Positions 9,469 through 13,496 are shown, counted from the first letter of the stretch. The stretch: 64,000 nucleotides of DNA from Pseudoflavonifractor sp. An44 (GCF_002161675.1 NZ_NFIH01000003.1:1-64000); one strand, 5' to 3'. The notes: generated from the sequence alone by a model not told the origin. A program made the numbers and translations.

Positions 9469-9497
9469 TTGACAAGGGAGGCCTCATCTTATAAAAT
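9469..9497 (+). promoter_or_regulatory. Promoter for the dockerin/cohesin pair
   Basis: A perfect TTGACA (9469-9474) and TAAAAT (9492-9497) are separated by 17 bp, about 115 nt before the first gene. Confidence 0.75.
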
Positions 9498-9613: not shown

Positions 9614-11653
9614 ATGTTACAAAGTGGAAGAAGAATGGAGAAGAAAACACGGACGCTGGCAGGGCTGGCGGCGGTGTTTTTTGCCTGCATGGTGGTTCTG
9701 TCCGCCTTTGTGGCGGTGTACGCCGGAGGCGTGCGCTACGGCGTGGTCACTGGCACCGAGGTGGGCCTGAGCGTGCGTGCGGGAGCGGGAACCTCGTACA
9801 CCCGGCTGGGACTTATTTACGACGGCACCACCGTCACCATCACCGGGGAGAAAAAGGCCTCAGACGGCGCCACCTGGTATGCCATTGACTACAACGGCGG
9901 CACCGGATACGTCATCAGCACCTACATCAAGCTCATGGACAGCGGTGTGGATGACAAGGAGTTTGAGGCCTACCTCAAACAGCAGGGCTTCCCCGAGTCC
10001 TACTGGAGCGGGTTGAAGGTGCTCCACGCCATGTACCCCGAGTGGGTGTTCAAGGCCGACCACAACGGCTTTGACTGGAACTACGCCGTGGACCAGGAGT
10101 CCAAAATCGGCAACAGTTTGGTGCAGTCCTCCTCCAAGTCCAGCTGGAAGTCCACCGACCCCAAGGCCTACAACTGGGACACCGGGGTGTGGACGGTGTT
10201 TGACTCCGGCGGCTGGGTGGCTGCCTCCCGGGAGATTGTGGCCTACTACATGGACCCCCGGAACTTCCTGACCCAGAACAGCATCTTCCAGTTCCTCCTC
10301 CAGAGCTATGACGCCCAGGTGCAGAGCGTGGCGGGAGTGGAGCGGCTGGTGGACGGCACCTTCCTGGCCAATACCGTCACCGACACCGACGGCAAGCGAA
10401 TTTATTACCCCCAGGTGATCTATGATGCGGGCAAGAAGGTGGGGGTCAACCCCTATGTGCTGGCCGCCATGATCATCCAGGAGCAGGGCACCAAGGGGCT
10501 CAGCGACAGCATTTCCGGCAAGGCCCCCGGCTTTGAGGGATATTTTAACTTCTACAACATCGGCGCGGTGGCCGGAGGCGGCAACACTGCGGTGAAAAAC
10601 GGCCTCATTTACGCCAAGGGCGGTTCCAGCGGCACAGGCACCAGCTATGGACGGCCCTGGAACAGCCGGGTGCGGGCCATCAGCGGCGGAGCCCAGTTCT
10701 ACGCCAACGGCTACGTCACCGCCGGACAGGACACCATGTACTTAAAGCGGTTCAACGCCCAGGGGGACAACCCCTTTACCCATCGGTATATGACCAGTGT
10801 GTGGGGCGCGGCCTCCGAGGGTCTGAGTCTGGCCGGGGGATACAGCGAGGAGCTGCGCCAGTCCCCCCTGGTGTTCTCCATCCCTGTGTATGACAATATG
10901 CCCAGCAGCCCCTGTGCCCAGCCCACCGGGGACGGCTCCCCGGACAACCGCCTGAGCACCTTGAAGGTGGGCAACTACGCCCTCACCCCGGGCTTTGACA
11001 ACGACACCACCTCTTACAGTGTGGTGGTGCCCAACTCCGTCTCCTCTGTCACCATCACCGCCACCCCCAAGGCGTCCACCGCCAAGGTCAGCGGCGCCGG
11101 GACGGTGCAGCTGAAGGTGGGGGCCAATACCGTGAAGGTGACGGTCACCGCCCAAAACGGCAGCCAGCGGGTCTTTACCCTCACCATTGCCCGGGAGGGC
11201 GGCTCCGATTCCGGCGGCTCGCCCACCTTCTCCGTCAAGCCCAAGTACAAGGTCAGCGGGTCCAACCAGGTCTCCGGCATCACCTTGGGCACCAAGGTCT
11301 CCGACTTTGTCAAGAACCTGAACATCGTGGGGGGCTATGCCCAGGTGAAGACCGCCAGCGGCTCCACCAAGCAGAACTCCGCTGTGGTGGCCACCGGGGA
11401 CACTGTGACCATCTACCGCAACGACGGCACCCAGTACGCCAAGTGGACGGTGCTCCTGTACGGCGATGTGAACGGGGACGGGAAGATCGACAACTCGGAC
11501 CGTGTGAAGATTCGCAATCACGTTTTGGCGACCAGTAAACTCTCCGGGGTATATGCGGTGGCCGCAGATGTGAACAAAGATGGACAAGTGAACAATTCGG
11601 ACCGCGTCAAGGTTCGCAACCATGTATTAGGTACCTCTCTCATCAACCAATAG
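9614..11653 (+). CDS. Secreted glucosaminidase-like cell-wall hydrolase with SH3 and C-terminal dockerin
   Basis: A 679-residue exported protein. A signal peptide/TM lies at about residues 12-38. A bacterial SH3 (type 3) domain spans about 42-110, with GLSVRAGAGTSYTRLG. The central region to about 430 resembles N-acetylglucosaminidases acting on peptidoglycan, with a candidate catalytic Glu in AAMIIQEQGTKGL. A cadherin-like beta-sandwich lies at about 446-535. From about 617 there is a two-repeat dockerin, each repeat with the EF-hand-like calcium loop (DVNGDGKIDNSD and DVNKDGQVNNSD) followed by RVK-RNHVL. ATG 9614 is chosen for its AAGGAGAG site; 9635 is possible. Eleven bases separate it from the cohesin gene, so docking between the two products is inferred. 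Confidence 0.82.
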   Translation: MLQSGRRMEKKTRTLAGLAAVFFACMVVLSAFVAVYAGGVRYGVVTGTEVGLSVRAGAGTSYTRLGLIYDGTTVTITGEKKASDGATWYAIDYNGGTGYVISTYIKLMDSGVDDKEFEAYLKQQGFPESYWSGLKVLHAMYPEWVFKADHNGFDWNYAVDQESKIGNSLVQSSSKSSWKSTDPKAYNWDTGVWTVFDSGGWVAASREIVAYYMDPRNFLTQNSIFQFLLQSYDAQVQSVAGVERLVDGTFLANTVTDTDGKRIYYPQVIYDAGKKVGVNPYVLAAMIIQEQGTKGLSDSISGKAPGFEGYFNFYNIGAVAGGGNTAVKNGLIYAKGGSSGTGTSYGRPWNSRVRAISGGAQFYANGYVTAGQDTMYLKRFNAQGDNPFTHRYMTSVWGAASEGLSLAGGYSEELRQSPLVFSIPVYDNMPSSPCAQPTGDGSPDNRLSTLKVGNYALTPGFDNDTTSYSVVVPNSVSSVTITATPKASTAKVSGAGTVQLKVGANTVKVTVTAQNGSQRVFTLTIAREGGSDSGGSPTFSVKPKYKVSGSNQVSGITLGTKVSDFVKNLNIVGGYAQVKTASGSTKQNSAVVATGDTVTIYRNDGTQYAKWTVLLYGDVNGDGKIDNSDRVKIRNHVLATSKLSGVYAVAADVNKDGQVNNSDRVKVRNHVLGTSLINQ

Positions 11654-11663
11654 GAGTAGATCA

Positions 11664-13448
11664 ATGAAAAAATTCTTTCTCAATAAGTGTGCGATGCTGG
11701 TCATGGCGTTAGCCATGATTCTGGGTTTGGGTCTGACTACCCCCCGGAGTCAGGCGGCTGGAAGCTGTGTTGTCACCTTTTCGGATCCTACGGTCACTGT
11801 GGGGCAAACGTTTACCGTCAATGTGAGGGTGACTGGAGCTGTGGCCATTGCCACGGTGAAGGTGAACTATGACTCCAGCTATCTGCAATATGTTTCCGGT
11901 GATTTAGGCTACGGATATCCTAGCGGCAATGTGATTGTCATGGATAAAGAGAATGCTGGAACGGGTAACGTCAGCTTCTCGATGACCTTCAAGGCGCTGA
12001 AAGCGGGTAAGACTACCATCAACAACTATGAAAACTCCATTGTGGACAGCAATGGCGATTTCCTGGATGTGACCCCCGGCTGGTCTACGGTCACCATCAA
12101 CGCCCCCTACACCGCCTCGGGGAACAACAACCTCAGTTCCCTGTCCATCAGCCCCGGCACCCTGTCCCCCGGCTTCTCCGCCGGCACCACCAGCTACAGC
12201 GCCTCGGTGTCCAACTCCACCACCAGCGTGGCAGTGTCCGCCAAGGCCGCTGATGGAAAGGCCAAGGTGGCGGTGTGGGGCAACACCGGCTTGGATGTGG
12301 GCAACAACACCGTCACCGTCCAGGTCACTGCTGAGAATGGCAGCAAAAAGACCTATACCATCACCGTCAACCGGGCCTCCGGCGGCGGTGGCGGGAATAC
12401 CGGTGGAAATACCGGAGGAAACACAGGTGGCAATACAGGCGGGAACACCGGGGGCAACACGGGTGGCAATTCCCAGGCTCCCGAGGTCACCCAGACCCCT
12501 GAGCCCACCGCCACTCCGGTGCCCGATATCATGGTGACCTTGCCCGACGACACCCAGCTGGCGGTGTCCAAGGAGCTGCCCGAGGACGTGACCCTGCCCA
12601 AGGGCTTTGAGTCCTCCCAGCTGGAGGTGGACGGCCAGACCCTTCCCACCGCCGTGCACAAGGAGGGTGGATTGGTGGCCGTGTACCTGGCTGGCGACGA
12701 GGGCCATCCCGCAGGCTTCTACTTCTACAACGAGAAGACCCGGGAGGTCCAGGCCATGACCCCGGTGGCCATGTCCACCGGAAAGCTGACCCTGGTGGAC
12801 CTGCCCCAGGAGCTGGTGGTGCCCCAGGGCTATACCTCCACCCTCATGGAGCTGGGCGGCCAGCAGCACACCCTGCTGGTGCCCGATGACACCGAGGAGC
12901 CCAACCACTACATCGTCTACGCCATGGACGAGGAGGGCAAGCTGGGGCTGTACCTGTACGACGTGGAGCAGGAGAGCTTCCAGCGCTACCAGTTCACCCA
13001 GCTGGGGGACGCCCCTCTGGTCCTGGCTGAGGTGGCAGAGGAGCCCCAGAGCGAGGGCTTTGTGTTCACCCTCTTTGGCCGGGAGATCCGCACCGGCTGG
13101 AGCAACCGCGCCGTGTCCTACCTGATGGTGGGGGTCACTGCCTTGGCCGTGGTGCTGCTGGTGGCCGTGATCGTGCTGGTGGTGTGCCTGGTGAAGGCCC
13201 GCAAGGCCCTGCATCTGGCCTGGATGCGGGAGGAGGAACAGCGGCAGTGGAAGATCATCGCTGGCCCCCATGCCGGCATCAACGTGGACGATATCGTGGC
13301 GGAGTACACCAGCCGCAGCAAGCCCATGTTGGAGGACCGGGGCAGCCGGACCCTGCCTTCCCAGACCCAGCAGCCCCCCCGAGAGACCATCGACGTGTCC
13401 TGGCAGGAGGCCGAGCAGCCCGCTGAGGACCAGGAAGATGACAACTAA
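11664..13448 (+). CDS. Membrane-anchored cohesin-domain protein
   Basis: A 594-residue protein with a signal peptide (about 1-31), a cohesin-like domain (about 33-145, with VTVGQTFTVNVRVTGA and VKVNYDSSYLQYVSGD), a cadherin-like beta-sandwich (about 150-238) similar to that of the upstream enzyme, a Gly-Asn-Thr linker (about 241-269), a Pro/Thr stretch, an extracellular domain I do not recognise (about 285-470), one TM helix (about 484-512) and a charged cytoplasmic tail of about 80 residues. The single cohesin next to a dockerin enzyme suggests a one-to-one surface anchor. The first 450 bases are lower in GC than the rest. The start has an AGGAGTAG site. Confidence 0.82.
   Translation: MKKFFLNKCAMLVMALAMILGLGLTTPRSQAAGSCVVTFSDPTVTVGQTFTVNVRVTGAVAIATVKVNYDSSYLQYVSGDLGYGYPSGNVIVMDKENAGTGNVSFSMTFKALKAGKTTINNYENSIVDSNGDFLDVTPGWSTVTINAPYTASGNNNLSSLSISPGTLSPGFSAGTTSYSASVSNSTTSVAVSAKAADGKAKVAVWGNTGLDVGNNTVTVQVTAENGSKKTYTITVNRASGGGGGNTGGNTGGNTGGNTGGNTGGNTGGNSQAPEVTQTPEPTATPVPDIMVTLPDDTQLAVSKELPEDVTLPKGFESSQLEVDGQTLPTAVHKEGGLVAVYLAGDEGHPAGFYFYNEKTREVQAMTPVAMSTGKLTLVDLPQELVVPQGYTSTLMELGGQQHTLLVPDDTEEPNHYIVYAMDEEGKLGLYLYDVEQESFQRYQFTQLGDAPLVLAEVAEEPQSEGFVFTLFGREIRTGWSNRAVSYLMVGVTALAVVLLVAVIVLVVCLVKARKALHLAWMREEEQRQWKIIAGPHAGINVDDIVAEYTSRSKPMLEDRGSRTLPSQTQQPPRETIDVSWQEAEQPAEDQEDDN
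12388..12471 (+). repeat. In-frame tandem repeat encoding a GGNT linker
   Basis: A 12-bp unit encoding Gly-Gly-Asn-Thr is repeated about six to seven times with third-base variation. It makes a flexible linker in the cohesin protein and could vary in copy number between strains. Confidence 0.8.
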
Positions 13449-13460
13449 ATAGAATGCTAT

Positions 13461-13496
13461 AAAACTCCCCACGGCCCACCGTGGGGAGTTTTTTCG
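13461..13496 (+). terminator. Intrinsic terminator after the cohesin gene
   Basis: AAAACTCCCCACGG and CCGTGGGGAGTTTT arms are followed by more T residues. Confidence 0.88.

Follow-up and report, generated by a model that had tools for sequence, protein, structure and literature searches.

A candidate noncellulosomal cohesin-dockerin pair for holding a peptidoglycan hydrolase at the membrane of Pseudoflavonifractor sp. An44

What is a lone dockerin for when the only cohesin in the genome is encoded by the next gene? The question is raised by two neighboring genes of Pseudoflavonifractor sp. An44 in a stretch of 64,000 nucleotides (GCF_002161675.1, NZ_NFIH01000003.1:1-64000; the window). The first (9614..11653) encodes P1, 679 amino acids, which appears to be a SagB-like glucosaminidase that is secreted and carries an SH3 domain, a cadherin-like domain, an X segment, and a dockerin; the second (11664..13448) encodes P2, a membrane-anchored cohesin protein of 594 amino acids. 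Both genes, and all features given below for the window, are on the plus strand. To our knowledge, cohesin-dockerin clips have been studied almost only as parts of cellulosomes. A sequence-only reading of the locus proposed that the pair tethers the cell's own autolysin at the membrane rather than degrading plant fiber, and the comparative evidence supports that proposal: it is likely that the operon is a noncellulosomal, two-part device that keeps one of the cell's own peptidoglycan hydrolases on the outer side of the membrane. The genes, their domains, the probable operon, the cohesin fold, the one-to-one genome content, the conservation, and the repeat symmetry were all obtained by computation.

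A wall hydrolase with a dockerin and a membrane protein with a cohesin

The P1 polypeptide begins with a predicted signal peptide, followed by an SH3_3 domain (residues 51-106, 9764..9931; Pfam E=1.2e-11) and a catalytic domain (residues 113-432, 9950..10909). The catalytic domain has no match in Pfam; it is matched by the NCBIfam SagB model (1.4e-10), and the profile of P1 orthologs has as its best PDB match the SagB chain of the SagB-SpdC structure (6u0o_B, 7.3e-17). Residue E290 (codon 10481-10483) is invariant in 89/89 homologs and aligns with the glutamate in the LLETG motif of SagB. P1 is thus predicted to be a SagB-like (GH73-type) endo-beta-N-acetylglucosaminidase acting on peptidoglycan, which agrees with the cargo named in the sequence-only reading, a peptidoglycan glucosaminidase with an SH3 domain. 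Beyond the catalytic domain lie a cadherin-like domain (residues 446-535, 10949..11218; Pfam 7.4e-13), a pre-dockerin X segment seen in most orthologs when these are compared (residues 540-612, 11231..11449), and a type I dockerin of two F-hand repeats (residues 613-679, 11450..11650). The match to Dockerin_1 (PF00404, E=3.7e-11) spans residues 616-672. Both calcium loops that had been read as intact, DVNGDGKIDNSD and DVNKDGQVNNSD, do carry the ligands D-x-N-x-D...D, and in both repeats positions 10-11 are N-S and positions 17-18 are R-N.

P2 is ordered as signal peptide, cohesin-like domain, cadherin-like domain, GGNT linker, a domain here called MID, one transmembrane helix, and a charged cytoplasmic tail, so that the cohesin-like domain, linker, and helix claimed earlier for the downstream product are all present. 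The cohesin domain (residues 32-147, 11757..12104) reaches 20.6 bits in Pfam against a cutoff of 24.1, and Pfam alone would miss it. Its AlphaFold2 (AF2) model, with a per-residue confidence (pLDDT) mostly >90, was compared with the PDB by Foldseek; the top 40 matches are cohesins (best, 2vn6_A, 6.4e-11), noncellulosomal ones included, and the sequence profile matches the PDB cohesins 3l8q (1.6e-11) and 1g1k (4.9e-7). As modeled, the fold is a cohesin jelly roll; an unrelated immunoglobulin domain, which had been held out as the alternative for this region, is ruled out by the Foldseek search. The cadherin-like domain that follows (residues 157-237, 12132..12374; Pfam E=1.6e-14) is about 45% identical to that of P1, and the relationship suspected between the two is real. 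Next come the GGNT repeat linker (12381..12473) and MID, a two-lobed beta domain (residues 288-451, 12525..13016; model pLDDT, 91) for which Foldseek returned no PDB fold match at E<=0.001. The single transmembrane helix occupies 13116..13196, with the cytoplasmic tail running on to 13445; a transmembrane-like segment is found in 68 of the 70 complete partner (P2-type) proteins.

The long charged tails of some orthologs, taken with the extracellular MID, might suggest that P2 is a wall-state signaling receptor whose tail reports hydrolase occupancy or tension. However, a Pfam search of P2 shows no kinase, sigma, or other signaling domain, and the tails of P2 orthologs range from 4 to >600 residues, being very short in many of them; we regard a sensor of this kind as quite improbable.

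The two open reading frames are separated by 10 bases, and a GGAG ribosome-binding site for P2 (11653..11656) overlaps the P1 stop codon. Because a sigma-70-like promoter, TTGACA-17-TAAAAT (9469..9497; 11/12, a consensus match only), lies upstream and a strong intrinsic terminator hairpin (13461..13492; -25.4 kcal/mol, z=-5.3) lies 3' of P2, the two genes probably form a two-gene operon and are cotranscribed.

Conservation of the pair and signs of selection on its contact

The whole genome contains exactly one dockerin, on the glucosaminidase P1, with no other dockerin protein besides it, and exactly one cohesin, in P2. It has neither a multi-cohesin scaffoldin nor several dockerin-bearing enzymes for plant polysaccharides, and a cellulosome or a role in fiber degradation was rejected on this one-cohesin, one-dockerin content. 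A family search finds orthologous pairs in related genomes, and a scan of named genomes gives 80 loci across Oscillospiraceae, Lachnospiraceae, Clostridiaceae, and metagenome-assembled genomes (MAGs) of Bacilli; the pair is conserved across genomes, and chance neighbors were rejected on that ground. Because the pair recurs in many clostridia without a cellulosome, the clip probably also serves to keep the cells' own wall enzymes at the membrane.

Among 89 homologous hydrolases, 44 have both a dockerin and an adjacent cohesin. Another 13 carry a dockerin but have no cohesin next to them; 9 of these 13 belong to one clade that includes Ruminococcus. Ruminococcus bicirculans has one dockerin and one cohesin homolog, the latter with a signal peptide, a cohesin, a cadherin-like domain, and a transmembrane segment; the genes are unlinked and the pairing is still 1:1. 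Six further genomes of the clade were searched, and each has a protein with a cohesin and a transmembrane segment, some more than one. In this clade the cohesin partner of the hydrolase thus appears to be encoded elsewhere in the genome.

There are signs of selection on the contact. When the repeats of 37 paired dockerins are compared, the residues at positions 10, 11, 13, 14, 17, 18, and 21 agree within a protein at 0.62-0.97, against 0.11-0.48 for the same position between proteins (0/2000 permutations), and positions 2, 4, 7, 8, 16, and 19 show no such effect. In a published account, internal sequence symmetry is crucial to dual-mode binding (PMC8063739), and the repeat-symmetric contact residues would fit binding of that kind. 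In 35 pairs, the cohesin columns covary with the dockerin recognition residues with hydrolase identity partialled out (0/2000), in a partial Mantel test that does not fully remove phylogeny; the covariation is stronger on the strands of the cohesin binding face, as we defined it from known cohesins (9/2000), and is near zero for control dockerin positions.

A cellulosome vestige, that is, a leftover cohesin and dockerin without a partner function, is very improbable. The subthreshold score of the cohesin would be in keeping with it, but the calcium loops are intact, the contacts are symmetric, and the pair has been kept across all the groups listed above.

The contact was also modeled. The AF2 input was one chain of 221 residues that runs from the P1 dockerin through a short linker and the signal peptide of P2 into the cohesin; it was obtained by reading through the P1 stop codon with a frameshift of one four-letter word. 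With 69 aligned rows, the model has a pLDDT of 89.7 and a predicted template modeling score (pTM) of 0.72. We estimated that a free dockerin would give a pTM of ~0.58 at best, the cohesin being 118 of the 221 residues, and by that comparison AF2 places the P1 dockerin on the P2 cohesin with confidence, the placement being judged from the pTM. Binding would be of high affinity and calcium dependent.

In the mechanism that we propose, P2 would be inserted in the membrane by its one helix and would display the cohesin on a flexible stalk. P1 would be secreted and then caught by the calcium-binding dockerin at its C terminus, which probably can dock in two alternative orientations, with the SH3 domain of P1 contacting the wall, and the cutting of glycan would be restricted to the membrane-proximal zone in which nascent strands emerge. 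From the features above we infer the binding and its dependence on calcium, the localization of P1, its self-directed substrate, and the release of glycan strands.

Hydrolases without a dockerin and dockerins on other enzymes

All 58 dockerin-bearing hydrolases have 0-2 SH3 domains, and 25 of the 31 dockerin-less ones have at least 3, usually as 3-6 wall-binding repeats; one dockerin-less hydrolase (L058) has C-terminal repeats that resemble, by eye, choline/glucan-binding repeats. Replacement of the dockerin by SH3 or other wall-binding repeats fits a role in retention.

Several points weigh against the tether or limit its reach. AF2 was run on a single chain with the signal peptide as a linker, and type I complexes belong to its training data. 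The N-terminal hydrophobic segment of P1 might be an uncleaved anchor. The exchange of dockerin and SH3 repeats amounts to 4-6 independent events, for which a sign test, of low power, is not significant. A cohesin-like neighbor is found without a dockerin in 26 of the 89 hydrolases (~30%). Of 16 genomes in which the hydrolase of this group lacks a dockerin, 13 show no Pfam dockerin at all, so that P2 there cannot be a dockerin receptor. MID is conserved in dockerin-bearing and dockerin-less pairs alike. Because the dockerin-less genomes keep a P2-type partner and MID is shared by the two kinds of pair, it is probable that P2 has another role, older or parallel, that is independent of dockerins, and with such relatives retaining a cohesin-like partner, tethering cannot be the only function of P2.

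It may be that the main contacts between P2 and the hydrolase are made by MID or the cadherin-like domains, with the dockerin as an accessory that comes and goes; this would explain why a cohesin-like partner with MID stays beside a hydrolase without a dockerin, even in genomes that have none. We consider it unlikely, if worth keeping in mind, since the repeat symmetry and covariation reflect selection on the dockerin contacts, and in most bins of hydrolase identity the cohesins of dockerin-less pairs have diverged somewhat further than the others. In one dockerin-less clade the beta5-beta6 hairpin of the cohesin binding face is also shortened, although this is not exclusive to such pairs, the hairpin of L080, which has a dockerin, being short as well.

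At one locus (L096), the cohesin gene lies one gene further downstream of the hydrolase, and the gene between them (L096:6937-8319) encodes a Peptidase_S11 D,D-carboxypeptidase (2.8e-41) with a dockerin, the recognition residues of which are identical to those of the neighboring glucosaminidase dockerin. D,D-carboxypeptidases are normally own-wall enzymes. This additional cargo, together with the dockerin-bearing protein with a VgrG3-like domain and the dockerin-bearing polysaccharide deacetylase described below, points to wall metabolism, not fiber. The carboxypeptidase bears also on the idea that the tethered glucosaminidase is displayed to attack other bacteria or foreign peptidoglycan, as for the lysozyme reported from the Ruminococcus champanellensis cellulosome. 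Dockerin-bearing wall hydrolases are on record in cellulosomes, together with the idea of a "lyticome" (PMC6403190), and many relatives live in the gut or rumen; a single-cohesin anchor in the membrane, not the wall, however, puts the enzyme beneath the cell's own wall, and the L096 locus adds the carboxypeptidase, so that bacteriolytic display seems improbable to us. Taken together, the 1:1 pairing in cis or in trans, the symmetry, the covariation, the SH3 exchange, and the second peptidoglycan enzyme favor an own-wall tether over fiber degradation.

A broader proposal, toward which we lean only slightly, is that clostridia share a conserved module for wall maintenance, with a membrane cohesin recruiting at least one of the cell's own peptidoglycan enzymes through dockerins. 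This would be a primary housekeeping use outside cellulosomes and evolutionarily interchangeable with SH3 wall-binding repeats. Its cargo would be the glucosaminidase and, in one lineage, the D,D-carboxypeptidase, and possibly muramidase-like and deacetylase enzymes as well.

Other arrangements were seen in the survey. A protein with a VgrG3-like domain and a C-terminal dockerin is encoded 15 bases from a two-cadherin transmembrane protein at L061:3439-7623 and L062:2916-7082, the N-terminal domain of the latter protein not being recognized as a cohesin by hidden Markov models, and in G036/G188 a dockerin-bearing protein with a VgrG3-like domain adjoins a cadherin-like transmembrane protein in which no cohesin was detected. 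A polysaccharide deacetylase with a dockerin adjoins a cadherin-like transmembrane protein with a detected cohesin in G136; at L068:4227-7318, the gene for a dockerin-bearing polysaccharide deacetylase is transcribed divergently from that for a protein with a cohesin, two cadherin-like domains, and a transmembrane segment. In G030, G068, G029, G185, and other genomes of the family, a dockerin recurs in a protein of ~1650-1700 amino acids, and Pfam finds no cohesin in those genomes. In a second two-gene class (L171, L172, L173, and L175), a cohesin protein that has apparent SLH repeats adjoins a small dockerin protein (~200-290 amino acids). At ~23 loci, with or without a dockerin, the gene for the cohesin protein has a clpC-like gene downstream of it (e.g., L086:9256-11709 and L117:8667-11129).

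Comparison with known cohesin-dockerin and SagB systems

We found no paper describing this pair in a literature search limited to open-licence papers. The type I cellulosome pairs (CipA/Xyn10B of Clostridium thermocellum, 1ohz; 2vn5/2vn6 of Clostridium cellulolyticum) share with P1 and P2 the two symmetric F-hand repeats and the cohesin fold. P1 and P2 differ from them in having a single cohesin and a single dockerin in each genome, a membrane anchor, and a peptidoglycan enzyme as cargo, without a scaffoldin or fiber enzymes. The loci provide a large natural set of cohesin-dockerin pairs that differ in their recognition residues.

Wall hydrolases with a dockerin are known from cellulosomes, the R. 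champanellensis lysozyme (PMC6403190) among them; in cellulolytic species these attach to a scaffoldin, whereas P1 has a dedicated membrane cohesin, mostly encoded by the next gene, outside cellulosome producers. The noncellulosomal cohesins of Clostridium perfringens (2jh2, 2vo8, and 2w1n) are similar in fold to that of P2 but are borne on glycoside hydrolases, not on a membrane receptor. Closer to P2 are the "nonSLH-anchoring scaffoldins" of H. luporum, C. cibarium, and Lachnoclostridium MSJ-17, which have a single cohesin and a C-terminal transmembrane helix, as P2 does; the partners of the H. luporum and C. cibarium proteins were called unclear (PMC11557425). For P2, in contrast, adjacency and covariation identify the partner gene, and single-cohesin membrane proteins thereby gain a candidate partner and a class of cargo, along with a function open to testing: controlling where, at the membrane, a glucosaminidase acts.

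Among solved structures, the P1 catalytic domain is most closely related to SagB of the Staphylococcus aureus SagB-SpdC complex (6u0o), in which the hydrolase is held at the membrane by its partner (PMC10581084). In S. aureus, SagB is itself membrane associated and SpdC is an integral membrane protein resembling CAAX proteases, whereas P2 is a single-pass cohesin protein with no SpdC-type CAAX-protease-like match in Pfam. The P1-P2 pair is most likely a functional analogue of SagB-SpdC that works through a noncovalent clip, and it points to a way in which clostridia may localize SagB-like enzymes without an SpdC-like partner.

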